Part shown: piece by piece, positions 12,070-63,564 of the stretch
How the letters are laid out: each line of letters opens with the position of its first letter
Numbering within the stretch: the first letter of the stretch is position 1
Source of the DNA: Microbacteriaceae bacterium PS02070
GTDB taxonomy: Bacteria > Actinomycetota > Actinomycetes > Actinomycetales > Microbacteriaceae
Assembly (NCBI GenBank): GCA_029959865.1
Contig: JASCPE010000002.1
Span: 434,001 to 498,000 of the forward strand
Length of the DNA stretch: 64,000 nt
Reading direction: 5' to 3'
The notes under the pieces: generated by a model
The model's database searches: none
What the model saw: the letters and a program-made list of their open reading frames with translations, nothing else
Told to the model about the DNA's origin: nothing
Position numbers and translations under genes: made by a program

Positions 12070-12081
12070 GTGAGGAACGAG

Positions 12082-48103: not shown

Positions 48104-48921
48104 CTCGTGGCGCGCTGCCTGGCCGCCTCGTACAGGATCACGGTCGCGGCGCCGGCGGCGTTGAGCGAGCTGGCCGCTCCGCCGATCGGGATACGCGCCA
48201 TCACATCGCATGCTTCCCGCCAGCCTGCGCTGAGCCCGGCCGTCTCATTCCCGATGGCCAGGAGAGTCGGCCCGGTGAGGTCGACATCCGCGATGTCCGC
48301 CTCGCCGTGCTCATCGGTGCCGACGACGGTGATCGGGCGCCCGGCCTCGCGTTCCGCGCTGATCCACTCGAGCACCTGGGCGGGACCCGGGACCCTCACG
48401 GTGGGAACGGCGAACAGTGATCCCGTGGATGCACGGACCGCCTTCGGATCGTAGGGGTCGGCGGCGTGGCCGGTGACGATCATGCCCGCACCGCCGAACG
48501 CATCGACGGACCGGATGATCGATCCGATGTTTCCGGGCGCGGACGGGCGGTCAAAGAGCACGCCGAGGAAGGCTGGTCCGACCGGAATGCGGGTGAGGTC
48601 GTCGGGCGGGAGAGCGACGACGGCGACGACTTCCGGTGCGTCGGAATCCTTCTCGCCGAGCTGTCGCAGAAGGTCGGGTGACATTGCGACGTGTACGCCG
48701 CCCGCGCGTTTGCGCACGCCCTCTGCCCACTCGGAGAGGTGGCGCTCCGCGTCGTAGATGAGAGCACGGATCTCCCAGCCGTGTTCGATGGCGAGGGTGA
48801 TGGGACGCACGCCTTGCACGAGGAACTCGCCCGAGCGGTGCCGCTTCGTCCGGTTGCGCAGGAGAGACTCCCACTGCTGGTACTGAGAATTCGCACGTGT
48901 GATGTGCAAGGTGCGTGCCAT
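48100..48921 (-). CDS. TrmH-family RNA methyltransferase
   Basis: A 273-residue SPOUT methyltransferase. The N-terminal L30e-like domain (KRHRSGEFLVQGVRPITLAI) precedes the knot domain, with FDRPSAPGNIGSIIRSVDAFG (about residues 134-154), LLAIGNETAGLSAGW and IPIGGAASSLNAAGAATVILYEA. A 2'-O-methyltransferase for rRNA or tRNA. I start at MARTLHITRAN; the longer frame adds residues encoded in a poorly conserved region upstream. Convergent, with the helicase gene ending inside its last codon region. Confidence 0.9.
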   Translation of the reverse strand: MARTLHITRANSQYQQWESLLRNRTKRHRSGEFLVQGVRPITLAIEHGWEIRALIYDAERHLSEWAEGVRKRAGGVHVAMSPDLLRQLGEKDSDAPEVVAVVALPPDDLTRIPVGPAFLGVLFDRPSAPGNIGSIIRSVDAFGGAGMIVTGHAADPYDPKAVRASTGSLFAVPTVRVPGPAQVLEWISAEREAGRPITVVGTDEHGEADIADVDLTGPTLLAIGNETAGLSAGWREACDVMARIPIGGAASSLNAAGAATVILYEAARQRATS

Positions 48922-49089
48922 CGTGATCCACTCTTTCGACACCGACGTTCCCCCACACTCCCACACTCCCGCGTGCGGGACGGACGGCCTGGCGGCGCGC
49001 GATCATGCGCGGGTGGTTCGGAGTTCCGAAACTCTGACAATCGGCGCGAATCCGCGGATCTCGACTCACCGCGCCGCTACCGTTGCCTC

Positions 49090-50181
49090 GTGCAGACGAT
49101 CCCTGAGCCGACGGCGAAAGAACGCAAGCGATGGGCGCGCTACCTCGTTGAGGAGCGCGCCGAGGCGCACGTTTATCGGACGCTGGCGCAACGGCGCGAA
49201 GGGGAGGAACGAGAGATTCTGCTCGCCCTCGCGGAGGCGGAGGGTCGCCACGAGCGGCACTGGCTGACCCTGCTCGGTGGGGAGCCGGCGAAGCTCCCGT
49301 CGCCGGGACTGGAGAGCCGAATCCTCTCGGTCATGGCCAAGCGGTTCGGTTCGATCTTCGTGCTTGCACTCGCGCAGAACGCGGAGGACCGCTCGCCGTA
49401 CGACGATGACCCCTCGGCGACGTCGGCGATGGTGGCGGACGAGAAGATTCACCGCGAGGTCGTGCGCGGGCTCGCAGCTCGTGGCCGCCGCCGACTGTCG
49501 GGAACCTTCCGCGCCGCCGTGTTCGGTGCCAACGACGGCCTCGTGTCGAATCTCGCGCTCGTGATGGGAATCGGCGCGACCGGGGTCGCACCGCAATTCG
49601 TCCTCTTCAGCGGGATCGCGGGGCTTCTCGCCGGCGCCCTGTCGATGGGGGCGGGGGAGTACGTCTCCGTCAGGTCGCAGCGGGAGCTGCTGGATGCGAC
49701 CGCGCCGAGCAACTACGGGGACGAGGTTCTGCCCGACCTCGATCTGGATGCGAACGAGCTCGCGCTTGTCTATCGGACCCGGGGCTTCGGTGCGGAGGAG
49801 GCGCAGAAGATGGCGCGCGAGATCATTCAGGCCGCGCACAGCGCCGACCGGTCATCGCCATATCGCCGCCCCGACGAGGTTGCCGCTGAGGAGCATGAGG
49901 TTGTCGGTGGCGCCTTCGGCGCCGCAGTGTCGAGCTTCCTGTTCTTTGCATCGGGCGCGATCATTCCGGTGCTTCCGTGGCTCCTCGGCCTGCAGGGCGC
50001 GGTTGCCGTCGTGATCGCGCTGGTGCTCGTCGGCCTCGCGCTCGTGGCAACGGGTGCCATGGTCGGCTTGCTCTCTGGCGCGCCGCCGCTCCGCCGCGGC
50101 CTGCGCCAGCTGGCCATCGGCTTCGGAGCGGCCGCAATCACGTACGTTCTTGGGCTGCTGTTCGGCGTCTCCGCAGGCTAG
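49090..50181 (+). CDS. Ferritin-like domain fused to VIT1/CCC1 transporter (MbfA-like)
   Basis: A 363-residue fusion. Residues 1-70 form a ferritin/rubrerythrin-like helical part with EERAEAHVYRTLAQRREGEER and EAEGRHERHW, carrying Glu and His metal ligands. The rest is a five-helix VIT1/CCC1 transporter with AAVFGANDGLVSNLALVMG (about 150-168), GALSMGAGEYVSVRSQ (cytoplasmic metal-binding region starts here) and the final GFGAAAITYVLGLLFGVSAG. Bradyrhizobium MbfA of this architecture exports iron and protects from iron and peroxide stress. The GTG start is preferred. Directly downstream is the tRNA-Leu gene where the mobile element is inserted, and that element carries a second VIT protein. 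Confidence 0.9.
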   Translation: MQTIPEPTAKERKRWARYLVEERAEAHVYRTLAQRREGEEREILLALAEAEGRHERHWLTLLGGEPAKLPSPGLESRILSVMAKRFGSIFVLALAQNAEDRSPYDDDPSATSAMVADEKIHREVVRGLAARGRRRLSGTFRAAVFGANDGLVSNLALVMGIGATGVAPQFVLFSGIAGLLAGALSMGAGEYVSVRSQRELLDATAPSNYGDEVLPDLDLDANELALVYRTRGFGAEEAQKMAREIIQAAHSADRSSPYRRPDEVAAEEHEVVGGAFGAAVSSFLFFASGAIIPVLPWLLGLQGAVAVVIALVLVGLALVATGAMVGLLSGAPPLRRGLRQLAIGFGAAAITYVLGLLFGVSAG

Positions 50182-50260: not shown

Positions 50261-50346
50261 GCGCGGGTGGCGGAATAGGTAGACGCGCTAGCTTGAGGTG
50301 CTAGTGCCCGTATTAGGGCGTGGGGGTTCAAGTCCCCCCTCGCGCA
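50261..50346 (+). tRNA. tRNA-Leu (anticodon GAG)
   Basis: An 86-base type-II tRNA. The acceptor stem GCGCGGG pairs with CTCGCGC (one G-U), the D-arm contains GGAATAGGTAGACGC, the anticodon stem CTAGC/GCTAG holds loop TTGAGGT with GAG at 50295-50297, and there is a long variable arm (TGCCCGTATTAGGGCG). The T-arm is GGGGG-TTCAAGT-CCCCC. The discriminator base is A at 50346 and CCA is not encoded. The last 21 bases, from the T-loop, are part of the element attachment core, so the 3' end is of element origin. Confidence 0.97.
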
Positions 50347-50348
50347 CA
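50326..50348 (+). repeat. attL: left attachment-site copy at the tRNA-Leu 3' end
   Basis: A 23-bp sequence from GTTCAAGTCC to CTCGCGCACA, covering the tRNA T-loop, the 3' half of the T-stem and acceptor stem, the discriminator and 2 bases beyond. It is identical to 61609-61631. Confidence 0.95.
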
Positions 50349-50408: not shown

Positions 50409-50429
50409 ATGTGCTGAGTTATGTGCTAA
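50409..50429. repeat. Left pair of ATGTGCTRA direct repeats (candidate integrase arm sites)
   Basis: ATGTGCTGA at 50409 and ATGTGCTAA at 50421, 12 bp apart, 61 bp inside the left att core and overlapping the integrase stop. The same pair with the same 12-bp spacing is found near the right end (61471, 61483). Confidence 0.65.
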
Positions 50430-51711
50430 GCCCCACCGAGATGGGCCGCGAAGCGGTCTGCTGCGGCTTTCTGCATCGTCGGGGTGACATGGCTGTAGAT
50501 GTTCATCGTGGTGGTGATGGTGGAGTGCCCCAGGCCTCCTGTACTACCTTGGGATGCTCGCCCAACTCCAGTAGGAGTGTGGCGTGCGTGTGGCGCAGCC
50601 CCTTGATCGTCACGCGGGGCAGCGTCGGGTGGACTTTGGCGAGCCAGTTCATGCGGCGATCCCAGCGGCTCGTCATGGCGTCGGGAGAGCGCAGCTTGCC
50701 CTCGTCGTCACCGAACACATACGCATCGGCCCCCGCGAGCTTGAACGACACTTCGGAGCGGGCGACCTTGTAGGAGGCGAGCACTTTGAGGGTTGCGGCG
50801 TCCACGTCGATCACGCGGGCGTTGCCCGTTTTGGTGGTCTTGGTGGCCGTCCAGTCCTCGGTGTTCACCGCTCGCCGGATGCTGACCCTGCCGGTTCTGG
50901 TGTTGATGTCGTTCCATCTGAGCGCGAGAGCCTCTGAACGCCGCATCCCCGTGTAGGCGATCAGTCGCCACAGCGGGAACAGTTCGTCTTTCAGCTCCTG
51001 CTCGTTCCAGGTGAGGAACGTCTGTAGCTGCTCGCCCGTCCAGGTCACGATTTCCGGTTTCTGCGCGCGCACCTGTGATGACTTCGGGGCGTTCACGGTG
51101 CGCTTCTTCTTCGCTGGGTTGACCTGGATCAGCCCGTTGTCGATTGCGGCGTCGAGGATCGCGCCGAGGACGACATGCACCTTGTGGATGCTGTTGGCCG
51201 ACAGGGGCTTGCCTTTGCCGTACTCGTCCTTGCGGCCTGACTTCTCCAACTCCCGGTAGTGGGAGCCGATGCGGGTAGCGGTGAGCTTGTCGATCCTGAT
51301 GCGGCCCAGGTCGGGGGTGATGTGGTTGCGGATGATCTTCCGATACCCCTTGATCGTGGAATCGGCCAAGCGCAGCGACGTCACCCAATGCTCGACGTAG
51401 ACGCCGACCGTGGGGGTCTTGCCCTGGAACTTCTCGTTCCTCGCCTTCTTCCGCAGCGCCTCGGTGAGTGCGGCCTGCGCTTCTTCGAGGTCGGTGAACC
51501 CGCCACGGGTCAGCCGCTTCTCGCCAAGCTCGGGCTTCTCGGGATCGATCAGCACATAGATTTGGAACTTCCACCGATGCCCCTTGCGGGTTTGGTAGTC
51601 GCCCAGCGATCCCTGATGCCGCGAGCGGGAACGCCGCTGCTGCTTCTGCTTCACCCCCTCAACGCTGCTTGGGGCCGCCTCGTTGGGCGGCGGGTTGCTG
51701 GCTGGTGCCAT
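50426..51711 (-). pseudogene. Tyrosine site-specific integrase, frameshifted before the catalytic His/Tyr
   Basis: A phage-type integrase: N-terminal AP2-like arm-binding domain (HRWKFQIYVLIDPEKPELGEKRL), SAM-like core domain (HWVTSLRLADSTIKGY) and catalytic domain with Arg257 in TGMRRSEAL and KGLRHTHATLL (residues 370-380; Lys in the usual His place). After VVQE the intact frame reads AWGTPPSPPR and stops. In the next frame it continues LGHSTITTTMNIYSHVTPTM and ends at 50426, carrying the catalytic His of LGH and the Tyr nucleophile in NIYSH. One base is missing at 50534-50535 (expected Arg codon CGC appears as GC). Either a real inactivating mutation or a sequencing error. RBS AGGAGC before the ATG. 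Confidence 0.9.
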
Positions 51712-51776
51712 AGCCCTGCTCCTTTCTCTCCTGGTGGTATCTCGCGCTCGTTCGGCGCGGGAAGATCAATGGTGCG

Positions 51777-52337
51777 TTACTCGAAGGCGAGTGAGTCGTT
51801 CGGGTCGAGCTGCAACAACCTGCCGGTGGCGTGTTCCTCGCGCGCGGTCTGCACGTCGTAGCGTTCCTGGTACACCTCGCGCGGGGTGACACCGACCTGG
51901 CCACGGTCGTACTTGGCGAGCATCTCCTCGGCCCAGTGCGCCGAGTTGATCGCCTGGAAGCGTCGCTCTTTCCAGTAGCGCACCAAGTCCTCGGTGGTGA
52001 GCTTCACGGCACCTGCGACCCATGCCTGTATCTCTTCGGGCAGGAACGACTCGGGCACCCCGGTCAGCGTGACCGCCTCAGCGGGCGGCGTGAGCAGTGC
52101 TGCGGGTGTGGTGCGGAGGATGTAGGCGAGGGCGGTGAGGTCGTCCACGTCCACGCGACGGTCGCCGTTCTCGATCTTGCTGATCCCCGACGGGGCGAGC
52201 TTCCGGCCCGCCTCGGTCATCAGCCGGGCGGCGGTGCGCACGTCCATGCCGATGGCCTGGCGTGCGGTGCGGAGGTTCTGGGCGACGTGCTCATGTGTGA
52301 TCCCGGCAGGGTTTCCCCGTAGTCGTTCTGTTTCCAT
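51777..52337 (-). CDS. XRE-family (cI-like) repressor of the element
   Basis: A 186-residue regulator with an N-terminal HTH, VAQNLRTARQAIGMDVRTAARLMTEAG, then LAPSGISKIENGDRRVDVDDLTALAYIL (residues about 15-72), the standard Xre helix-turn-helix. The C-terminal half has no peptidase or recognised ligand domain. It contains DLVRYWKERRFQAINSAHWA and an amphipathic stretch. Divergent from the excisionase-like gene across 95 bp, it likely represses its own and the neighbouring promoter, as in other integrative elements. ATG at 52337 is used; the frame extends upstream into the promoter region. Confidence 0.88.
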   Translation of the reverse strand: METERLRGNPAGITHEHVAQNLRTARQAIGMDVRTAARLMTEAGRKLAPSGISKIENGDRRVDVDDLTALAYILRTTPAALLTPPAEAVTLTGVPESFLPEEIQAWVAGAVKLTTEDLVRYWKERRFQAINSAHWAEEMLAKYDRGQVGVTPREVYQERYDVQTAREEHATGRLLQLDPNDSLAFE

Positions 52338-52432
52338 ACTAGGAACGTACATGCCTGCTCTTGACTCGTCAAGCGCTCTACCGTACTTTATTGGGAACTT
52401 TACACGCTTGATTAGGAACGGCAGGCAGGGCG
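52338..52432. promoter_or_regulatory. Face-to-face divergent promoters of the element's repressor switch
   Basis: Rightward: TTGACT (52361-52366), 17-bp spacer, TACTTT (52384-52389). Leftward: TTGACG (complement of 52367-52372), 17-bp spacer, TACGTT (complement of 52344-52349). The two -35 boxes abut and form the near-palindrome TTGACTCGTCAA (52361-52372). GGAAC motifs at 52343, 52394 and 52415 (contexts CTAGGAAC, TTGGGAAC, TTAGGAAC) are candidate repressor half-sites. A repressor bound at the centre could shut off both directions. Confidence 0.65.
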
Positions 52433-52672
52433 ATGAGAGACATATCGGTGACACTGGACGACTTGCGTGCTTCCCGCAACGCGGTCATTACCCGCGCGGA
52501 GGCTGCGGCGGCGCTCGGGGTCGATCCCCGCACGATCACGGCGAGCATCGAGAACGGGTCGATCCCGTCCGTGAAGCTCGGCAGGCGAGTCGTGATCCCG
52601 CGCGAGAAGTTCCTGCGCATCTTCGACGGCGAAGACACACCCCACACGGTTCCCGGCACCGCCTCGCGGTGA
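52433..52672 (+). CDS. Excisionase-like helix-turn-helix protein
   Basis: A 79-residue protein built around a MerR-like winged helix: ITRAEAAAALGVDPRTITASIENGSIPSVKLGRRVVIPREKFL (read in pieces, about residues 19-61). This is the HTH_17/excisionase layout, with the helix ending in a short wing and R-R-V-V-I-P. Such proteins bend DNA next to the attachment site and steer integrase towards excision, or act as activators. It is first on the rightward transcript from the divergent promoter. If integrase is dead, any excisionase role would be idle. Confidence 0.82.
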   Translation: MRDISVTLDDLRASRNAVITRAEAAAALGVDPRTITASIENGSIPSVKLGRRVVIPREKFLRIFDGEDTPHTVPGTASR

Positions 52673-53003: not shown

Positions 53004-53789
53004 ATGCCTGATCGGTACACCTATCCGGGCAGCGATGTTCTGGTCAACACGTTCGGCATCACCGACTACGACGACTGGAAAGATGCTGAGGCTGACTTCA
53101 TCGGTGCGCGCATGGGTGCGCTGCGCGAGCATCCCATCGCGGGTGGCTACGATCTGCCGCACCTGCAAGCGATCCATGCCTATCTGACGCAAGATATGTA
53201 CTCCTGGGGCGGAGAGATTCGCACCACCGACACGCATCCCGGCGGCACCGGCATCGCGCATTGCCGCCCGCAGTTCATCGTTCCCGAGACTGACCGCGTG
53301 TTCGATGCGCTCGCCCAGCGCGACTACTTGCGCGGGCTGGACCTGGATGCGTTCTCGGACGGGCTGGCGTGGGTGTGGGGTGAGACGACGGCGATCCATC
53401 CGTTCCGTGACGTGAACACGCGCAGTCAGCATGTCTTCTTCAACCAGCACGCGCGCGATGCCGGATGGGTGATCGACTGGTCGCAGATCCCCGGCGACGT
53501 GTTCGCCCATGCCCGCACCCTCGCCATCGTGGAAGATCACTCCGGGCTTGACGCGCTGATCCGCCCGAATCTCGTCACCGTCGAAGACGCCGCACGCTCG
53601 GACCGCCTCAGGGCGAGCCTGGATGAGCACGCGCAGGGCTTCACCACTCGCCGGTCGGTGCGCGACCCGGAGACGCTGGATCGTGCGCTCGACGCCGCCC
53701 GGCAGCGCCGCCGGAACCTCCCGCCACCTGAGGCGTTCGGTGGTGCGTCGCCCCGTGATCCGCGCAGCGGCCCCTCACTCGGCCTATAA
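53004..53789 (+). CDS. Fic/Doc-family toxin (VbhT-like AMP-transferase)
   Basis: A 261-residue Fic protein with the active-site loop HPFRDVNTRS at residues 132-141. The consensus HPFxxGNGR has both glycines replaced (Val and Thr). His132, Phe134, Asn138 and Arg140 are kept, as in other actinobacterial variants with NTR. The upstream flap region (SWGGEIRTTDTHPGGTGIAH) is typical of Bartonella VbhT. VbhT AMPylates gyrase and is neutralised by VbhA, encoded just before. The C-terminus ends GPSLGL, the same six residues that end the convergent relaxase; the two genes overlap by 6 bp at their 3' ends. May serve plasmid/element maintenance or, speculatively, act as a transferred effector. Confidence 0.88.
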   Translation: MPDRYTYPGSDVLVNTFGITDYDDWKDAEADFIGARMGALREHPIAGGYDLPHLQAIHAYLTQDMYSWGGEIRTTDTHPGGTGIAHCRPQFIVPETDRVFDALAQRDYLRGLDLDAFSDGLAWVWGETTAIHPFRDVNTRSQHVFFNQHARDAGWVIDWSQIPGDVFAHARTLAIVEDHSGLDALIRPNLVTVEDAARSDRLRASLDEHAQGFTTRRSVRDPETLDRALDAARQRRRNLPPPEAFGGASPRDPRSGPSLGL

Positions 53790-56700
53790 GCCCAGGCTCG
53801 GGCCGTCACGACGCGGCTCTGTGCTCGGGTGGTTCTGCTCGACCGCGCCGCGCAGTCGCCGCGCGCGGTCAGCGGCAAGCTGCCGGACCTGCTCTGCCGC
53901 TGCACGCTTCACTTCGACCAGTGCGGCGGCTTGCTCGGGCGGCAGGGCGCGCAATTCCTCGGCATCGCGCCGCGCCACCGCCGCCTGTGCGTGCACGTTG
54001 CGGGCTTCGCGGTCGGGGCGGATGAACCGTGCTCGTATCGGGTCACGACGCACCCGTTCGACCCCCAACTCTCGCGCGAGCAGCGTGAGGCGTTCGCGGT
54101 TGTGCTGGTCTTTGAGCGCCGCCCGCCCAGACTGCGCATCCGCGAGGCGGCGGTCGGCGTCGGTCACTCGCGGGTCGTTCTCGGCACGCCGCTCGGCACC
54201 GGTGGTGGCCCACTCGGTGAGGCTGTCGCTGTGGCGCGGTAGTACACCCCAGGCGTCGCGCACCTGCTCGCGTGCCGTGTGGGTGCGCTCGGTCGCGGCC
54301 TGGTACTCCTGTCGCGCTCGGCGTCGTCCGAACCTGCCCGACGTGGCGAGCCGTTCCGATGTGGTGCTCTCGGCGGTGACGGCTGTGAGGTAGGTTTCGC
54401 CGTCCTCGACGGCCTGCGGCACCAACTCCGCGACGACCTCGGCGCGGGCTTGGGCTGTGTGAGTCTCGGCGGCGCGGATCATCTCGGCGCTTTGCTCGTC
54501 CTCCGCCTGGTGGTTGGCCTGCTGCTGGTCGAGCCGCTCCGCGATCTGCTCCCACTTCTCGGCCGTTCGCTCGGCACGCTCGGCCTCGCGCACGAGTCGG
54601 GCAACCTCGTCGTTCACCTTGCTCACGGGGCCGTCAACGACGAGGCCGCGCACCGCCTCGGCTGCGCGCTTGGTGGCGTCGGCGAGTCCTCGGTCTGCGC
54701 GGTCGCTTTCCATCGCCTCGATGAACTGCGCTCGTGCATCGGCCATGCTCTCCGCGACAACGTGCAGGGTGTTCTCGTTTCGGCCTCGGGTCATGCCGAC
54801 ATAGACCGCTGCGCCGCCCATCTGCTCACCAAGAACGGTGTGCGAGACGGGCACGGTCACGCCCTGCACCCCGTATGCGGTCGCGGCATAGGAGAGGTGG
54901 GCGTGTTCGCGCACATACTCGGCGGGCAGATGGATCGTGTGTTCGCGTTTGCGGTCGCTGTGCGCGTCGCGTACCCAGAGCGACCCGTCCGCCAAGACGT
55001 GTTGTACAGTCCATTGTTGCCGGTTCGCCGCGCCCAGGTCGGCGCTGTTCTTGCGGGTCTGGATCAGGTCACCCCGACCGATGCTGAGGCCGTCGCTGCC
55101 CGTGGCCGTAGTGGTGTCGTCAACGAGACTCAGGCGGGTGCGTTCGTCTCGGATGCGGTCATTCAGTCGCGCCGCTTCATCGTTTGATGCCACGGTGAGG
55201 GCTTCGCCGTCGTGTCTGCTCGTGGCGAGGTGTTCGCGCAGCTCGTCGGCATCGGCGTGCAGCCGGATCAGCCCAAGCTCGCGTAGCCGGTCGAACACCT
55301 GGCCGGGGTCGCGGCGGTCGCGCATCCGCACCGTGACCTCGGCATAGGCCGGGTCGGTGAAGCGGTGTACCTCGGCCATATCGAACGCGCGGCCCCGGAG
55401 TTGCGCGGCCATGTCCAATACGCCGCCCCTGCCGACTGCGGGCAGTTGCGCGCGATCCCCGACGAGAGCGACCGTTGCACCCGTCTCCGCAGCGACCGTG
55501 AACAGGGCAAGGGCGGTGTCTTGGTCGAGCATCCCCGCCTCGTCCACCACGATCCGCTCACCACGACGCAACTGCGCGTCTCGGGGTGGGCCGGTGTAGG
55601 TTCCGCCAGTCATCGGATCGGTGTCGCCTGGGGCGAGGCGTGTCCATACGCCGTCCTGGTTCCAGCGCCATCCGTACGCGTAGACGAGGGCGGCGACGCT
55701 TTCGGCGGGAACGCCGAGTTCCTGGTGCGCGACCTCAGCGGCACGCTTCGTCGGCGCAACCACCCGCACCCTGCCACCTCGCTGCTCGGCGGCGCGGATC
55801 GCGGTGGCGAGCATCGTGGTCTTGCCCGCACCCGCTGCACCCTCCACGATCACCAGCGGATCCTGCGAGACGACCGCTGCGGCCGCGACGAGCTGGCCAG
55901 CGTCAAGCTGCTGCCCGAGTGCTGCTGCGTGTTCGCGCACGTCAGGGTGCTCCGGCTCCTGCTCGGGAGTTCGGGCGGTGATGCGGTCGCGCAGTTCCGT
56001 CTCAACCTGCACCACCCGCACGCTTGTCAAGTGCGCGACATGCTCCGGCGTCGCGGTGTCGGGCGGGAGGATCGAGAAGCAATCCTCGAGCGCGAGCGTC
56101 GTCGCAACCGTCACCAGTTCGCGCAACTCTTGCGGGGTGGCACGCACGCCCGCCTCGGTGATGATCCGGGTGGCGTGCTCCTGCACGGTGTGTCGAGTCC
56201 ACGCCGACTCTGCCGCGGCGCAACGATCCAATGCACGCGACGCGATCCGCTGCACAGACACCTCATCCGGTGATACCGGCACACGCGCCGGCATGCGGGC
56301 CAGGTGTTCGGGGTCGTAGCCGGCCTCGCGGAGCTCGGTCAGCCAGGCTTCCTCTTCCCGCAAGGTCGTGGGCTTCTTCGCGGGGCGCTCATACGCCCAC
56401 GCCTGCGCTGTCAGCCGAGATGAGACGACCGGCCCCATCGTCTCGCCCGGATGCGCCGTCTCCCACTCGGCTTCGAGCCGTTCCAGGTTCTTCCGCACCT
56501 GCTCGCCGCGCTTCGACATGAGCAGTTTGAACGGTTCGAGTTCGGTGACTTCGCCAGTCGTCACCGGGTCGAGGGTGAGGCCGTGACGGTCGAGCACTTC
56601 CGCGAGTTCGGCGCTGGCGGCGATCACGGCAGTACCGAGGGCGCGGATCGCGCCTTGCTGCCGGAACGTCGCCGCCGTGTCGAGCGCCCGCCACTTGCCC

Positions 56701-57245
56701 GCCGCCCAGACACGGGCGCCGATCTGCATGTGGATATGCCGGTGAGGATCACCGGCCCGGCTCGTCCGGTGCGTGATGCCGACCACCTGCATGTGCTCAA
56801 TAGGTACGACCTCCTGCTTGCCGCGCGGGCCGACACGAGTCACGGAGTACTGGGCGAGCCACCGCTGAATCTCCGCCAGGGCGTCCTGCTGTGCTGCGTC
56901 CAGCGCCTTGGATACCTCGGGATGCAAGGCGGCAGCGGCGGACAGGCTCTTGGGGGTGTTGATGACCATTTCCGCGAACCGGGGCGACCCCTGCCGATCC
57001 AACCCCGCGAGGCGAGGCTTTCCCATCTGCTCGCCGGTATCGGGATTGATCCAGTCCACCCATCCCGCATACTCGTCAGCGGTCAGCACCCGACTACTCA
57101 CGGCCTCGCCCGAAGCGTCGAGCACCGCGTACTGAACCCCGGTGCTGTCAGACAGATAGTAGTCGTCAGCACCTGAGCGGTCGGCCTCGACATAGCGCAG
57201 CGCATCAGCCCCGGTGCCCCGGAGCAAGATCACGCCGCCCTGCAT
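53784..57245 (-). CDS. MobF-family conjugative relaxase with RecD-like helicase
   Basis: A 1153-residue TrwC/TraA-type protein. The N-terminal relaxase part has a tyrosine pair in ADDYYLS (about residues 29-30) and the three-histidine metal motif HRTSRAGDPHRHIH (159-172). The helicase part has Walker A GAAGAGKTT (469-477), VVDEAGMLDQD (motif II) and a UvrD-like C-terminal region with YVGMTRGRNENTLHVVA. The last 250 residues are a charged coiled-coil-rich tail ending GPSLGL. It nicks oriT and unwinds DNA for conjugative transfer. I use the ATG at 57245 (MQGGVILLRG); GTG and TTG codons a few positions upstream are alternatives. No T4 coupling protein gene is nearby. Confidence 0.9.
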   Translation of the reverse strand: MQGGVILLRGTGADALRYVEADRSGADDYYLSDSTGVQYAVLDASGEAVSSRVLTADEYAGWVDWINPDTGEQMGKPRLAGLDRQGSPRFAEMVINTPKSLSAAAALHPEVSKALDAAQQDALAEIQRWLAQYSVTRVGPRGKQEVVPIEHMQVVGITHRTSRAGDPHRHIHMQIGARVWAAGKWRALDTAATFRQQGAIRALGTAVIAASAELAEVLDRHGLTLDPVTTGEVTELEPFKLLMSKRGEQVRKNLERLEAEWETAHPGETMGPVVSSRLTAQAWAYERPAKKPTTLREEEAWLTELREAGYDPEHLARMPARVPVSPDEVSVQRIASRALDRCAAAESAWTRHTVQEHATRIITEAGVRATPQELRELVTVATTLALEDCFSILPPDTATPEHVAHLTSVRVVQVETELRDRITARTPEQEPEHPDVREHAAALGQQLDAGQLVAAAAVVSQDPLVIVEGAAGAGKTTMLATAIRAAEQRGGRVRVVAPTKRAAEVAHQELGVPAESVAALVYAYGWRWNQDGVWTRLAPGDTDPMTGGTYTGPPRDAQLRRGERIVVDEAGMLDQDTALALFTVAAETGATVALVGDRAQLPAVGRGGVLDMAAQLRGRAFDMAEVHRFTDPAYAEVTVRMRDRRDPGQVFDRLRELGLIRLHADADELREHLATSRHDGEALTVASNDEAARLNDRIRDERTRLSLVDDTTTATGSDGLSIGRGDLIQTRKNSADLGAANRQQWTVQHVLADGSLWVRDAHSDRKREHTIHLPAEYVREHAHLSYAATAYGVQGVTVPVSHTVLGEQMGGAAVYVGMTRGRNENTLHVVAESMADARAQFIEAMESDRADRGLADATKRAAEAVRGLVVDGPVSKVNDEVARLVREAERAERTAEKWEQIAERLDQQQANHQAEDEQSAEMIRAAETHTAQARAEVVAELVPQAVEDGETYLTAVTAESTTSERLATSGRFGRRRARQEYQAATERTHTAREQVRDAWGVLPRHSDSLTEWATTGAERRAENDPRVTDADRRLADAQSGRAALKDQHNRERLTLLARELGVERVRRDPIRARFIRPDREARNVHAQAAVARRDAEELRALPPEQAAALVEVKRAAAEQVRQLAADRARRLRGAVEQNHPSTEPRRDGPSLGL

Positions 57246-57261
57246 CGCTCTCACCACCAAT

Positions 57262-57278
57262 GTTTCTAAACTAGAAAC
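57262..57278. promoter_or_regulatory. 17-bp perfect inverted repeat in front of the relaxase gene
   Basis: GTTTCTA and TAGAAAC separated by AAC, 17-33 bp upstream of the relaxase start. The half TAGAAAC resembles the TAGGAAC sites in the repressor switch at 52.34-52.42 kb, so the element's XRE protein may also control mobilisation. The rest of the gap (57279-57462) contains a second near-palindrome, CTACCACGGTAG, but no gene; it could also hold oriT. Confidence 0.5.
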
Positions 57279-57462
57279 TCTATCTATCTACCACGGTAGC
57301 ATACGTTCATTCAGAAGTCAGCAGAGCGATCTTAGAATCGCACTGTGCGACACGGAAGGTTCGCGTAAGTCGGTGACGGCTTCTGAGCCGCGAGTGAACA
57401 CTGCGTGAATGCAGCGCGGCGAGTCGCGCCAGTCCCGGACGGTGCCCCATTCTGAGTAAGAA

Positions 57463-58677
57463 ATGTTATCCGCAGAAGGTGGCCGTCGAACCGACTTTGG
57501 CGCGCCATTGCTGGTCCTTCTGGTGTTCTTGAGGTTAGGGTGCACGTCGTTCGGTGGCCCGGTCGCTCATCTAGGATATTTTCGAGCAGAGTTCGTCGAG
57601 CGACGCAGGTGGCTGGGTGATCGCGCGTATGCGGATCTTGTCGCATTGTGCCAGTTTCTTCCCGGCCCGGCATCAAGCCAGGTCGGCATGGCGATCGGTT
57701 TGCAGAGAGCTGGAATACTCGGTCTTGTCGCGGCATGGCTCGGGTTCACACTGCCATCTGCGGTATTGCTGTTCGGGTTCGCGCTCGGCGTATCGACCCT
57801 TGGCGACGTATCGCAGGCTGGATGGGTGCTGGGCCTGAAGGCTGCGGCGGTCGCGGTCGTGGGTCATGCTGTGCTCGGGATGGCAAAGTCACTCACGCCT
57901 GATGCGCGACGAGCGACGATTGCTGTCGGGGTGCTCACTGTCGTGCTGCTCGTACCCGGCCCGCTGACGATGTTCGGCGCGATGGCCTTGGCCGGGATCG
58001 CGGGGTTCTTCGTCTGTCGATCCCCGAGCACGGCCGAGAACGATGAACCGCGTTTCCGGGTGCGCCTGCGGCCCGCAGTCGGATGGTTGAGCCTGGCTGT
58101 GTTCGTCATGCTGCTCGCAGGGTTGCCTATTCTTGCTGCGTTCACCGGCAACGCCACGGTAGGCCTGATTGACACCTTCTATCGTGCGGGGTCGCTCGTG
58201 TTCGGTGGCGGGCATGTCGTGCTCCCGCTTTTGCAGGCTGAGACAGTGCAAACTGGACTGGTGGAGCCGGGTGCGTTCCTCGCGGGGTATGGTGCCGCGC
58301 AGGCGGTGCCAGGGCCGCTGTTCACCTTCGCCGCGTTTCTCGGAGCGGTCACCACGAGCGGCCCGAGTGGGCTGCTCGGCGCATCCATTGCGCTGCTCGC
58401 GATCTTTCTGCCGTCTGCGCTGCTCGTGATGGGGGTGCTGCCCTTCTGGGAGCGGTTGCGTCGTGCGCCGAGAGTGCAGCGTGTGCTGACGGGCGTGAAC
58501 TCCGGAGTCGTCGGGCTGCTCGCCGCCGCGCTGTACGACCCCGTATTCACCGCGGGTGTCACGAACGCCGCATCACTCGTCGTCGCGGCACTCGCGTTCG
58601 TCGCACTCACGTCCTGGAAAACACCGGCATGGGCGGTAGTGCTCGGGGCCGCAGGAGCCGGGGCATTGCTGCTCTGA
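57463..58677 (+). CDS. chrA: Chromate transporter ChrA
   Basis: A 404-residue CHR-family exporter with two homologous halves. The N-terminal half has SFGGPVAHLGYFRAEFV (about residues 28-44) and QFLPGPASSQVGMAIG; the C-terminal half has FGGGHVVLPLLQAE and AAQAVPGPLFTFAAFLG, giving about ten membrane segments. ChrA expels chromate (and takes sulfate-like anions) across the membrane. It starts 217 bp from the divergent relaxase gene and ends within 75 bp of the ATPase gene. It is the first of a three-gene cargo operon. Confidence 0.92.
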   Translation: MLSAEGGRRTDFGAPLLVLLVFLRLGCTSFGGPVAHLGYFRAEFVERRRWLGDRAYADLVALCQFLPGPASSQVGMAIGLQRAGILGLVAAWLGFTLPSAVLLFGFALGVSTLGDVSQAGWVLGLKAAAVAVVGHAVLGMAKSLTPDARRATIAVGVLTVVLLVPGPLTMFGAMALAGIAGFFVCRSPSTAENDEPRFRVRLRPAVGWLSLAVFVMLLAGLPILAAFTGNATVGLIDTFYRAGSLVFGGGHVVLPLLQAETVQTGLVEPGAFLAGYGAAQAVPGPLFTFAAFLGAVTTSGPSGLLGASIALLAIFLPSALLVMGVLPFWERLRRAPRVQRVLTGVNSGVVGLLAAALYDPVFTAGVTNAASLVVAALAFVALTSWKTPAWAVVLGAAGAGALLL

Positions 58678-58749
58678 ATGCGCTACGCGGATACTCAGGC
58701 GAGGCTGGCCTGCAATGCGAGAAGCGTGCCCGCCTGGGAGGATTGGAGC

Positions 58750-60708
58750 ATGAGCCGTGTTTCATCTCTGGTCAGGGCATATCCACTCGTGATCGCAACA
58801 CTGTTGGTGGCTATGATCGGGTTGGTTCTCTTAGCGACTCCGGCCAGTGAGTCGGCCAGCTGGATTGTGGGTGCGTATGCGCTCGTGATTGCCGGGTGGG
58901 AGGCGGTCGGGATGATCCGGCAGCTCATCCGAGGGCACGCCGGGCTCGACATTCTTGCGGTGACGGCAATCACCGCTGCAGTGCTCGTTGGGGAGCCGTG
59001 GGCGGCGCTCGTGGTGGTGCTGATGCTCACCGGCGGGGCGGCCCTCGAAGATTACGCTGAGAACCGTTCGAAGCGGGAACTGACCGCGCTGCTGCGTAAG
59101 GCACCCCAGCAGGCCACGCGCGTTCTCGCCCCAAGCGCACCCGGCGCGGACATGCACGGGCATACTGCCGAGGTCACGACCGAGGACATACCGGTCGAAG
59201 AAGTCGAGGTGGGTGATCTGTTGTTGGTGCGGCCGGGTGCACTCGTGCCTGTGGACTCGATCCTCGTCTCCGAGCACGCCGTGTTCGATGAGTCGTCATT
59301 GACCGGTGAAAGTCTGCCCGTTGAGCGTGACGCGGGAGAGAAAGTGTCGAGCGGTGCGGTGAATGGACAAGCCGCAGTCACCATGCGGGCTGCGGCTCCG
59401 GCCGCCGAGAGCGAGTATCAGCAGATTGTTCGGCTCGTCGAACAAGCCGCGGGGAGCAAAGCCAAAGTCGTGCGGCTCGCCGATCGGTACGCGGTGCCGT
59501 TCACAGTGCTCGCGCTCGTGATCGCCGGGATCGCGTGGGCGGTCAGTGGAGAGGCTGTCCGGTTTGCCGAGGTGCTGGTGGTGGCGACCCCATGCCCGCT
59601 GCTGATCGCCGCGCCGGTCGCGTTTCTCGGTGGCATGAGCCGTGCCGCGAGGTTCGGGCTGATCGTCAAGGGCGGCGGCACCCTCGAACAGCTTTCACGA
59701 GCCCGCTCGGCGGCATTCGATAAGACCGGCACCATCACTACCGGCAAGCCAGTGCTCGAACGCCTTCTGCCCGCCGACCGCGCCAGCGAAGACGAGCTGC
59801 TGCGTTTCGCAGCCTCAGCGGAGGTGTACTCCTCTCACGTGCTTGCGGACTCCGTCGTGCAGGCCGCGAAACAGCACGGTCTGTCGCTCGTCGAAGCCGA
59901 ACATGCCGAGGAGATCGCGACAAACGGAGTCGCGGCTGTGTTCCGCACTCCTGACGCACCTGAGGCAGTGACGGTTCGTGTCGGCAAGCCCTCCTGGGTG
60001 CGCCACTCCGCGCCGGACCTCGTGCTGGCAGACCTTGCTCCAGGGGAACTCGCAATCTACGTCTCAGTCGACGGCCGTTTCGCCGGAGCCATCGTCATGC
60101 GCGACCAAGTGCGCGAAGAAGCAGCCCAGGCTCTCCGTCAGCTGAGCGCACTCGGTATCGAGCGTACGCTCATGGTCACCGGGGACGTTGCAGCCACCGC
60201 CGAACCCATCGCGCGGCGCCTTGGAATCAGCGAGGTGCACGCGGAGTGCCGCCCCGGCGACAAAGTTCGCATTGTCAGTAGCGTGCAGCCCCGCCCGCTC
60301 ATCATGGTCGGTGACGGCCTCAACGATGCCCCAGTGCTCGCTGCTGCGGATATTGGCTTCGCAATGGGGGCGCGCGGTGCAACCGCAGCATCGGAGTCTG
60401 CGGACATCGTGAACCGCTACGACACGCTCTCGGCCCTGCCGCGCGCGGTGAGCATCGGCAAGGACACCGTGCGCATCGCACTGCAAAGCATCTGGCTCGG
60501 CATCATCATCAGCGTCGGCCTCATGCTCATCGCCGCCTTCGGGTTCCTCCCCGCACTCCTCGGCGCGTGGCTGCAAGAAGTCGTTGACCTGGTGGCCATC
60601 CTCGGCGCACTCCGTGCAGTCGGCCCACGATCTGAGCGAATCACACGATCATCACCAGTCGCATCGACGGAACAACTTCACTTCAGCACGACCCAAGACA
60701 GGAAATGA
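58750..60708 (+). CDS. P1B-type heavy-metal ATPase with TPC motif
   Basis: A 652-residue ion-pumping ATPase: TGES (185-188), membrane metal-site motif TPCPLLIAAPVAF (from 280), phosphorylation motif DKTGT (324-328) and GDGLNDAP (from about 521). The usual CPC or CPx is replaced by TPC, and the P1B hallmark His-Pro dipeptide reads His-Val (SSHVLA). Such TPC pumps have been linked to nickel or iron rather than copper or zinc. There is no N-terminal heavy-metal-binding domain. I start at MSRVSSLVRAYPLV, where GGGAGG lies 8 bases upstream; an ATG at 58678 overlapping the chrA stop is possible. Metal substrate not established. Confidence 0.88.
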   Translation: MSRVSSLVRAYPLVIATLLVAMIGLVLLATPASESASWIVGAYALVIAGWEAVGMIRQLIRGHAGLDILAVTAITAAVLVGEPWAALVVVLMLTGGAALEDYAENRSKRELTALLRKAPQQATRVLAPSAPGADMHGHTAEVTTEDIPVEEVEVGDLLLVRPGALVPVDSILVSEHAVFDESSLTGESLPVERDAGEKVSSGAVNGQAAVTMRAAAPAAESEYQQIVRLVEQAAGSKAKVVRLADRYAVPFTVLALVIAGIAWAVSGEAVRFAEVLVVATPCPLLIAAPVAFLGGMSRAARFGLIVKGGGTLEQLSRARSAAFDKTGTITTGKPVLERLLPADRASEDELLRFAASAEVYSSHVLADSVVQAAKQHGLSLVEAEHAEEIATNGVAAVFRTPDAPEAVTVRVGKPSWVRHSAPDLVLADLAPGELAIYVSVDGRFAGAIVMRDQVREEAAQALRQLSALGIERTLMVTGDVAATAEPIARRLGISEVHAECRPGDKVRIVSSVQPRPLIMVGDGLNDAPVLAAADIGFAMGARGATAASESADIVNRYDTLSALPRAVSIGKDTVRIALQSIWLGIIISVGLMLIAAFGFLPALLGAWLQEVVDLVAILGALRAVGPRSERITRSSPVASTEQLHFSTTQDRK

Positions 60709-61442
60709 ACAATATGGCATCCGACTCAAGCACCACGCCGCATCCCGGCGAAGCCCACCTGCAGAACGTGGGCCAACGTTTGAACTGGCTACGTGCAGGG
60801 GTGCTCGGCGCAAACGACGGCATCGTCTCTACCGCGGGTGTCGTCGTCGGTGTCGCTGCCGCTACACCAAACAACGTACTGGCAATCGCGACGGCCGGTA
60901 TCGCCGCCGTAGTTGCCGGGGCGTTCTCAATGGCTGGCGGAGAGTATGTTTCGGTGAGCACCCAACGCGACACAGAGAAAGCGCTCATCGCAAAAGAACG
61001 GTGGGAGCTCGAAACCATGCCCGAGGAGGAGCTTGAAGAACTCACCGAGCTCTATCGACAGCGGGGCCTTTCAGATGACCTCGCACATCAGGTCGCGGTG
61101 CAGCTTACCGAGACGGACGCTCTCGCCGCTCACGCAGAGGTTGAACTCGGAATCGACCATGAAGAGTTCACAAGCCCGTGGGCAGCCGCCGTGTCATCGT
61201 TCATTGCGTTCGCCGTTGGAGCGCTGATCCCACTCATCATGATCTTGCTCCCCGTCGGCGGACACCGAGTTTGGATCGCAGCCATCGCAGTTGTGATCGG
61301 CCTCTTCCTCACCGGTTGGATCAGCGCTGCGCTCGGTGGCGCGCCGCGCGGTCGCGCAATTCTCCGGAACGTGGTCATGGGCTCAGCGACCATGATCGCC
61401 ACATACGCCATTGGGGCACTCTTTGGCGTGGCCATCGGATAG
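60705..61442 (+). CDS. VIT1/CCC1-family iron/manganese transporter
   Basis: A 245-residue membrane protein. GVLGANDGIVSTAGVVVGVA is in the first helix, AGAFSMAGGEYVSVSTQRD starts the cytoplasmic metal-binding region, and the last helices end YAIGALFGVAIG. It moves Fe2+ or Mn2+ out of the cytoplasm or into storage. Its ATG overlaps the stop of the ATPase gene (ATGA), so they are translated together: a pump plus a transporter for what may be the same metal. A second VIT protein, with an extra ferritin-like domain, lies just outside the element at 49 kb. Confidence 0.92.
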   Translation: MNNMASDSSTTPHPGEAHLQNVGQRLNWLRAGVLGANDGIVSTAGVVVGVAAATPNNVLAIATAGIAAVVAGAFSMAGGEYVSVSTQRDTEKALIAKERWELETMPEEELEELTELYRQRGLSDDLAHQVAVQLTETDALAAHAEVELGIDHEEFTSPWAAAVSSFIAFAVGALIPLIMILLPVGGHRVWIAAIAVVIGLFLTGWISAALGGAPRGRAILRNVVMGSATMIATYAIGALFGVAIG

Positions 61443-61608: not shown

Positions 61609-61631
61609 GTTCAAGTCCCCCCTCGCGCACA
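61609..61631 (+). repeat. attR: right attachment-site copy (fragment of the original tRNA-Leu)
   Basis: A 23-bp exact copy of attL. Upstream, GTGTGCGAGGGGGA (61588-61601) is nearly the inverse of the right half of the site, forming an imperfect palindrome around 61602-61615. This may be a core-type integrase site on the element side. The remaining tRNA is not present here, so this copy is only a footprint of the pre-insertion gene end. Confidence 0.95.
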
Positions 61632-61640
61632 CGAAGAAAC

Positions 61641-61677
61641 GGCCCCTGACCTGAGATTTCTCTCGAGGTCAGGGGCC
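61641..61677 (+). terminator. Original tRNA-Leu terminator, displaced by the element
   Basis: Perfect 12-bp arms GGCCCCTGACCT and AGGTCAGGGGCC with a 13-base loop, starting 9 bp after attR. By position it was the terminator of tRNA-Leu before insertion. It now probably serves the convergent glycosyltransferase gene and the element's right-end transcript. Confidence 0.85.
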
Positions 61678-61693
61678 CTCTCTGTGTCGACGA

Positions 61694-62788
61694 TTAGTCG
61701 GTGCGTGTGCGGAGGGCAACGATACGGTCGGCCGCGACTTCTGCGCCGCTCGGTGCGGCGCGCAGTCGGTTGCCGATCTGGGCTGCGCGGCGCCGGAGCG
61801 CGTCGTCACCGATCATGCCTTGAACCTCGGAGCGGATCCGTGATGGGCTAGCGGATTTCTGCAGCCACCGACCCGCGCCAGCGCTCTGGACGATGTGAGC
61901 GATCATCCGCTGATCGGACGTCGGATTGACCGGCAGGATCAGGAGCGGAACCCCGTGTGCGAGCGTCTTCATCGTCGTGGAGTGTCCGCCGTGTCCGATG
62001 ACGAGATCGACCGTGGGGAGAAGCTCGGCGTGTGGCACCCAGCCGTGAACCTCGACGTTCGCGGCAGTCGGCAGGGGGCCACCGAGCTCCACGCCGCCGG
62101 TCGTTACGACGGCCTCCACTGCGAGCGACGAGAGCGCATCGATGATGCGTCGATAGACGGCGAGCATGCCCGGCCAGGTGGTGGAACTGAGTGCGACGAG
62201 CACTCGAGAAGGAGTGCCCCGAGGCAGGGGTTCGGTCCCGGCCTCTGTCGTCCCGGTCCACTCATACCCGCGGAGCCGGGGGTCGTCCCGTCCGGGATCG
62301 AGGTCACGGTCGGTGAGGAGAAGTCTTGCGGAGGCATGCTCCCAGAGCGAGCTCGGACGCAGGCCCACCGCGCCGAAGAATCGGCCGATCGCACCGCGGT
62401 CAAAGGAATCGATCCAGAAGCTTCCGACGGTGTGGAAAAGTGCCACGACCGGCACGCCGCTTGCGATCGCGCCACGGAGCGGTGCGGGCAGCATGCAGTC
62501 GACGACGACCACGTCTATGCGTCGTTCGCGAACGAGTGCAGCCGCTGCGGTGGAGGTCTCGGCGCTGATCATGAGGCGTCGCAGCGCGCCGAACTCGCGC
62601 AGCCCCTGGCGATGACCCTCCGGTCTGATCGCGGTGGCGCGCTCGAACGGCACATGAGTCAACGAGGTGCGTCCCCCGCGCAGTCCTGCGATCTCGACGT
62701 CGATCCCGCGGCGTGCGACCGCCTCGGCGACGGCGAGAGTCGGAGGAATGTTGCCACCGAGGTCGGCGGTCACAAAGAGCACCTTCAC
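61694..62788 (-). CDS. GT1-family glycosyltransferase
   Basis: A 364-residue GT-B glycosyltransferase of the macrolide/UDP-glucosyltransferase type. The N-terminal Rossmann half opens MKVLFVTADLGGNIPPTLAV. The C-terminal half carries the donor-binding signature VHGWVPHAELLPTVDLVIGHGGHSTTMKTLAHGVPLLILP (read in parts, about residues 242-281), including the His and Gly-Gly-His. It attaches a sugar to a small lipophilic acceptor, perhaps a glycolipid or xenobiotic. It is the first chromosomal gene after the element and stands alone. Confidence 0.88.
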   Translation of the reverse strand: MKVLFVTADLGGNIPPTLAVAEAVARRGIDVEIAGLRGGRTSLTHVPFERATAIRPEGHRQGLREFGALRRLMISAETSTAAAALVRERRIDVVVVDCMLPAPLRGAIASGVPVVALFHTVGSFWIDSFDRGAIGRFFGAVGLRPSSLWEHASARLLLTDRDLDPGRDDPRLRGYEWTGTTEAGTEPLPRGTPSRVLVALSSTTWPGMLAVYRRIIDALSSLAVEAVVTTGGVELGGPLPTAANVEVHGWVPHAELLPTVDLVIGHGGHSTTMKTLAHGVPLLILPVNPTSDQRMIAHIVQSAGAGRWLQKSASPSRIRSEVQGMIGDDALRRRAAQIGNRLRAAPSGAEVAADRIVALRTRTD

Positions 62789-62982
62789 GGCGTCCTCCTC
62801 ATCGGATTGTGGCGAGATGCCCTCGATCGCGCAGATCCGCGCCTTCAGTGTGGCAGGGAGGACCCGAAGCCGGCTACGCGCTCTCGTCCGGATTCGTGAT
62901 CGGCACTGCCCGTCGTCCCGGAACGGAAAGTAGAGCTGCCATCCTGGCTGCGGCAGTGGGGGCTGGCGGTAGCCTGGATCGT

Positions 62983-63465
62983 ATGCCCGAGCATGTATCC
63001 ACGGCGAGGGTGAGCCCCCGCACTCTCTTCCGGACGTTCGCTGTCGCCGAGATGTTCACATGGGCGGGCCTCATCACCGCGCTGATCCTGCGCGCGCTCG
63101 ACACGGTGAACATCGTGCCGATCGCGGGAGGCATCCACGGATTCGTCTTCCTCTGTTACGCGGCATCGACCGTCTTCGTGTGGATCAACCAGCGCTGGCG
63201 GCTCCCGGTGGGCATGACGGGGCTGCTGTCGGCCGTGATCCCATTCGCGACGCTCCCGTTCGAGCTGATCATTGACAGGAAGGGACTCCTCGCCGGCACG
63301 TGGCGCCTCGCCCCCGGGGGTGAGCAACCTCGCGGTGTTGTGGAGAAGCTGCAGGCCTGGGTCCTGCGCCGCCCCATTCTCGCCGCTGTCGTCCTGCTCA
63401 TTCTCGTGACGATCGTCTTCGTCACGCTCCTCTGGATTGGACCACCGATCCCGCGGGGCGAATGA
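62983..63465 (+). CDS. DUF3817-type small membrane protein
   Basis: A 160-residue protein with four hydrophobic segments: AEMFTWAGLITALILRAL (about 22-39), VPIAGGIHGFVFLCYAASTV (about 45-64), VGMTGLLSAVIPFATLPFEL (about 75-94) and PILAAVVLLILVTIVFVTLL (about 131-150). The pattern AVAEMFTWAGL and HGFVFLCYA match DUF3817, found in actinobacteria and firmicutes with unknown function. It is divergent from the glycosyltransferase across about 190 bp. Upstream of the peptidase by 99 bp. Confidence 0.83.
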   Translation: MPEHVSTARVSPRTLFRTFAVAEMFTWAGLITALILRALDTVNIVPIAGGIHGFVFLCYAASTVFVWINQRWRLPVGMTGLLSAVIPFATLPFELIIDRKGLLAGTWRLAPGGEQPRGVVEKLQAWVLRRPILAAVVLLILVTIVFVTLLWIGPPIPRGE

Positions 63466-63564
63466 CCACCGTGCTGCATCTGGCGGGCTGACCCACCCTG
63501 CGTGAGTTCGTGAGCCAGCCGAATGCGGGCAAGCCCACTGCTGACGGCGAGTAGCGTGGAGCGC

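Follow-up and report, generated by a model that had tools for sequence, protein, structure and literature searches.

The analyzed window (the whole stretch of 64,000 nt from contig JASCPE010000002.1 of Microbacteriaceae bacterium PS02070) contains an element of 11,283 bp, bounded by exact 23-nt repeats and located in a tRNA-Leu(GAG) gene (Table 1). The features of an integrative element inserted in a tRNA gene were found: direct repeats at both ends, one of them corresponding to the 3' end of the tRNA, and a relative whose site is empty (see below). The element also carries a MobF relaxase gene, the hallmark of integrative mobilizable elements, with a score above the curated cut-off, and a Pfam and NCBIfam scan of its seven main frames recovered no coupling-protein or secretion families. 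Since no conjugation machinery was found among the seven scanned genes, the element appears to be of the integrative mobilizable type. The Fic and relaxase genes are convergent, with stop codons overlapping at 53784-53789, and both proteins end in GPSLGL; the hairpin expected between these converging genes was not found.

Table 1. Features of the element and of its attachment sites in the window.
Feature	Coordinates	Strand	Remarks
tRNA-Leu (anticodon GAG), attachment gene	50261..50347	+	ARAGORN; 3' end is the source of the left repeat
Left 23-nt attachment repeat	50326..50348		Exact direct repeat
Out-of-frame 3' end of integrase gene	50426..50533	-	With LGH histidine and tyrosine; ends in TAG; matches L034 residues 394-427 at 100%
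Tyrosine integrase gene, shortened ORF	51711..50503	-	402 aa; last residues out of frame; PF00589 match to profile position 155 of 172
Site of the one-base shortfall	50530..50540	-	Alignment to L031, L033 and L034
Helix-turn-helix (XRE-like) regulator	51777..52454	-	PF13560 and PF01381, each slightly below cut-off; true start may be further in
Fic/DOC family protein	53004..53789	+	PF02661 above cut-off; VbhT- and Fic-type NCBIfam models below theirs
MobF (TrwC-type) relaxase-helicase, open frame	53784..57260	-	PF08751, PF13604; NF041492 MobF above cut-off
Chromate transporter	57463..58677	+	PF02417; TIGR00937 above cut-off
Heavy-metal translocating P-type ATPase	58678..60708	+	TIGR01525 and TIGR01512 above cut-offs
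VIT family protein	60705..61442	+	PF01988
Right 23-nt attachment repeat	61609..61631		Exact direct repeat; L033 alignment to the window ends at 61631

The left flank of the element was searched in 38 genomes (its own included), and the nine same-genus genomes in which the match ran through the tRNA were examined closely. The M20 peptidase gene found on the right side of the element in the window comes after the tRNA in all nine, at a distance of 73-328 nt in eight of them and of about 2.5 kb in L076, and no element DNA was detected at the tRNA in any of these genomes (E 1e-5). In L078, a stretch of 44 nt that follows directly after the tRNA, with a 12-nt hairpin, is 91% like the window sequence to the right of the right repeat; judged from this junction, the tRNA locus of L078 is an empty attachment site. 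The region 61632-63520, compared with the same nine relatives, gave matches to the peptidase alone, plus the 44-nt hairpin stretch in L078, so that another segment specific to the lineage may lie directly to the right of the element. A glycosyltransferase gene (61694-62788) and its neighbor occupy this region and separate the element from the peptidase gene, the glycosyltransferase scoring far under the macrolide-glycosyltransferase cut-offs.

The integrase frame stops early, ending in VVQEAWGTPPSPPR followed by TGA, and its tail AWGTPPSPPR consists of out-of-frame residues. When aligned to three near relatives, from Nesterenkonia MAG bin114 (L031), an uncultured Microbacteriaceae MAG (L033) and 'Candidatus Leucobacter sulfamidivorax' GP (L034), the window was one base short at 50535, within the ten or so positions where the initial annotation had placed a single-base deletion. 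The one-base frame break is thus confirmed as an observation on the sequence. A second frame, from 50533 to 50429, reads LGHSTITTTMNIYSHVTPTMQKAAADRFAAHLGGA and is closed by TAG at 50428-50426; the 35 residues past the break are identical to the L034 integrase and include the LGH histidine and the tyrosine. Both the shortened frame (48 bits) and the intact L034 protein (73.5 bits) scored above the PF00589 cut-off of 27.1, with matches ending at profile positions 155 and 170 of 172, respectively. The GH histidine and the tyrosine, which we take to be catalytic residues in the tyrosine recombinase family, were placed in the lost part by aligning the intact L034 protein to solved recombinases. 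These included PDB 6emy (presumably the Int of the element Tn1549), a distant structure (E-value 8.8e-9) to which, as to other solved tyrosine recombinases, the intact relative aligns over residues 135-423, the RHT...GHS...Y stretch included. The C-terminal histidine and the nucleophilic tyrosine therefore do not share a frame with the rest of the protein, both lying past the break, as had been claimed from the letters of the sequence.

In order to place this break among related integrases, loci were drawn from a genus sample of 198 genomes, a scan of named genomes (20 loci), and samples of the family (398 genomes) and the order (396 genomes), the last two each including the genome under study, and only best matches became loci. 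The break site was spanned in one frame by 55 of the 60 loci with at least 55% identity; the other five were copies of the window (L001, L058, L072 and L097) and a locus whose contig ends before the site (L037). The 55 loci formed 37 DNA-distinct groups, from which L070 was dropped because it is only a short match, to a different gene in the genome under study, and the site was unbroken in all 36 remaining relatives. Among loci below 55% identity, 26 of 27 span the site in one match; the match of L030 (28% identity) stops at residue 407. The same pattern was observed in the wider samples: matches reached at least residue 420 of 427 in all 20 other genomes of the family sample that matched at E 1e-80, and at least residue 423 in all five other genomes of the order sample, whereas the match of this copy stops at residue 396. 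Frame changes elsewhere in the integrase gene were detected in two of the 36 relatives (L015 and L028), indicating that a broken integrase copy is not unusual; partial matches only were obtained for L017, L027, L050 and L112. Integrase matches in 1,048 phage and 168 plasmid records were all distant (below 60% identity), and the sole match in viral contigs covered 26 residues.

Within the genes of the element, the integrase site was the only frame-breaking indel relative to L031, L033 and L034 (the first of these being comparable up to 57927 only). One further coding indel was found, a 3-nt in-frame difference in the relaxase, while the remaining indels were intergenic, within the tRNA or close to the right repeat, and no stops occurred within the frames of the other element genes. 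The 35 bp at 51739-51773, between the regulator and the integrase, are absent from all three relatives. The integrases of L033 and L034 are intact, unlike that of the window. The same is true of those of L031 and of Brevibacterium aurantiacum ATCC 9175 (L032), which share 95% protein identity with the window over residues 1-395 and whose genes are identical in DNA to that of L034 over 1,284 nt; similarity to the window ends at 52593 in L032 and at 57927 in L031, where the contig ends soon after. Such DNA identity across Nesterenkonia, Brevibacterium and Leucobacter suggests a very recent cross-genus spread of this integrase.

A missing base may also arise during sequencing or assembly, in which case the integrase would be intact in the living strain. 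The 35 unchanged residues past the break would fit such an error, as would the constrained appearance of the integrase gene, which is that of an intact gene. The quality of the contig and the context of the site argue against it. In a control based on conserved genes compared with a related genome (292 genes, 310,189 of the 464,000 nt of the same contig), seven candidate breaks were obtained and none was real: two fell in the 23S rRNA, one in the RNase P RNA, and four came from stop-to-stop frames extending upstream of the gene into its neighbor. The rule of three accordingly places the rate of detectable indel errors at less than roughly one per 100 kb (95%), in a control with no internal positive, its reference genome being without the integrase. 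Moreover, the site lies outside any run of at least four equal bases (a GGGG begins directly after it, at 50531). The same context also counts against a real deletion, in that simple slippage does not account for it. Given the lack of any true break in 292 conserved genes of the same contig, a deletion that occurred in the cell, in a gene free to decay, appears more likely than an assembly error, which we regard as unlikely. A separate scan of the window against relatives flagged the integrase site in 33 comparisons. Other apparent breaks in that scan were rejected as gene boundaries or shadow frames (near 12078, 38225, 39463, 40308 and 42830) or as intergenic (51740 and 52672), and at 50480, 52387-52421 and 57254-57320 no frame-breaking indel was present in L033 and L034.

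The ratio of non-synonymous to synonymous divergence (omega) relative to L034 was 0.13 for the 5' part of the integrase, compared with 0.13 for the Fic gene, 0.18 for the regulator and 0.20 for the relaxase. In this same part of the integrase, polarised changes (synonymous/non-synonymous) amounted to 6/7 on the window branch and 13/9 on the L034 branch, with 39/12 unassigned, numbers too small to separate decay from constraint. As the integrase gene still looks constrained, and its 35 residues past the break are unchanged relative to L034, its loss is probably recent.

The account that we consider very likely is that of a mobilizable element in tRNA-Leu(GAG) whose integrase was later disabled by a probably recent one-base deletion. 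The 11.3 kb element would have entered the 3' end of the tRNA gene by means of its own tyrosine integrase. The subsequent loss of one base from the integrase gene, probably a recent event, would have deprived the product of both the catalytic histidine and the nucleophilic tyrosine. The shortened integrase would keep its DNA-binding parts and early catalytic residues, and is predicted to be unable to cut or join DNA. Lacking the link between tyrosine and DNA, this copy is expected to have lost self-excision, and would remain tied to the chromosome unless a related integrase acts in trans. The initial annotation had described the element as stranded if the deletion is real, which agrees with the predicted failure of self-excision but overlooks a possible rescue: both 23-nt terminal repeats of the element are undamaged, and other genera have intact integrases of this type, making excision by a related integrase in trans possible. 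In the genome itself, no second match to this integrase was found at E 0.001. Four other PF00589 matches were present, namely two high-scoring genes (putatively Xer-like), a different integrase that appears full-length (contig 33) and, on contig 52, a frame of 90 aa with the domain end only.

The element would thus represent a clean case of apparently recent mobility loss, with close intact sisters in other genera, and the loss of the integrase would fix the metal-transport cargo in one chromosome. A functional role for the lesion can also be imagined, with a stable integrase that binds DNA without cutting it, locks the metal-transport cargo in place and blocks the excision or entry of active sister elements; we consider this very improbable. 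This copy looks instead like an ordinary representative of an already known type of element, disabled not long ago, which involves no new mechanism and leaves the general picture unchanged.

Even less probable is a split recombinase, composed of the shortened protein and a short C-terminal peptide whose translation would begin anew at the ATG sharing bases with the stop (ATGA at 50506-50503): such a peptide would begin with MNIYSH and hence carry the tyrosine, but it would be without the LGH histidine, the AGGAGG motif lies 28 nt ahead of the ATG, too far for ordinary initiation, and none of the 36 relatives is split at the site. The chance that programmed ribosomal frameshifting joins the two frames into a full-length integrase is close to negligible, for although the -1 frame runs 93 codons before reaching a stop and a single AGGAGG motif, of the type that stimulates some frameshift sites, is present in the frame (50540-50535), the whole integrase frame holds no X XXY YYZ heptamer and no shift is needed at the site in any of the 36 relatives, so that neither a conserved shift site nor a slippery sequence was found. 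Recoding had been doubted from the start for want of a slippery heptamer, a doubt that these results bear out; the +1 direction then named was mistaken, since rejoining a frame that lacks one base takes a -1 (or +2) shift.

Regarding the relatives of the element, the closest sisters were those of L034 and L033, whose alignments with the window begin at the tRNA-Leu and extend as far as the right repeat (about 11.4 kb), with 95.6% and 95.4% identity, respectively, and which are 99.7% alike over 11,269 nt. Identity was unevenly distributed along the element. In bins of 500 nt, values relative to L034 ranged from 86.6 to 97.6% between 50261 and 56260, compared with 98.0 to 99.8% between 56261 and 61760, the step (at 56261) falling inside the relaxase. 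Synonymous divergence (dS) followed the same trend, with values of 0.16-0.24 from the integrase to the relaxase genes versus 0.01-0.02 in the cargo. A further relative, Leucobacter weissii (L038), has the cargo (from 57261) in common with the window at 97.6-99.8% identity, while its backbone is much more distant (69-77% in the relaxase bins and 81-91% at the integrase end). These identity profiles mark the element as a mosaic whose metal-transport module was exchanged recently. Its cargo and relaxase front resemble those of the nearest sisters far more closely than the integrase end does, so that this family of elements swaps modules. No near match to the cargo was found in the plasmid collection.

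As for the literature, the available excerpts of the paper on strain GP report MobF/TrwC relaxases and a chromate transporter and do not describe this element (PMC6868719), and nothing on it appears in the excerpts available from the cheese-rind literature (PMC6579920 and PMC5719810). Searches with strict term sets returned no paper on frameshifted or defective integrases of integrative elements, including those in tRNA-Leu or Actinobacteria, a result that is not put forward as absence from print. Finally, two VIT-family genes occur in the window, one (48691-50181) in the chromosomal flank by the tRNA and the other (60705-61442) within the cargo of the element.
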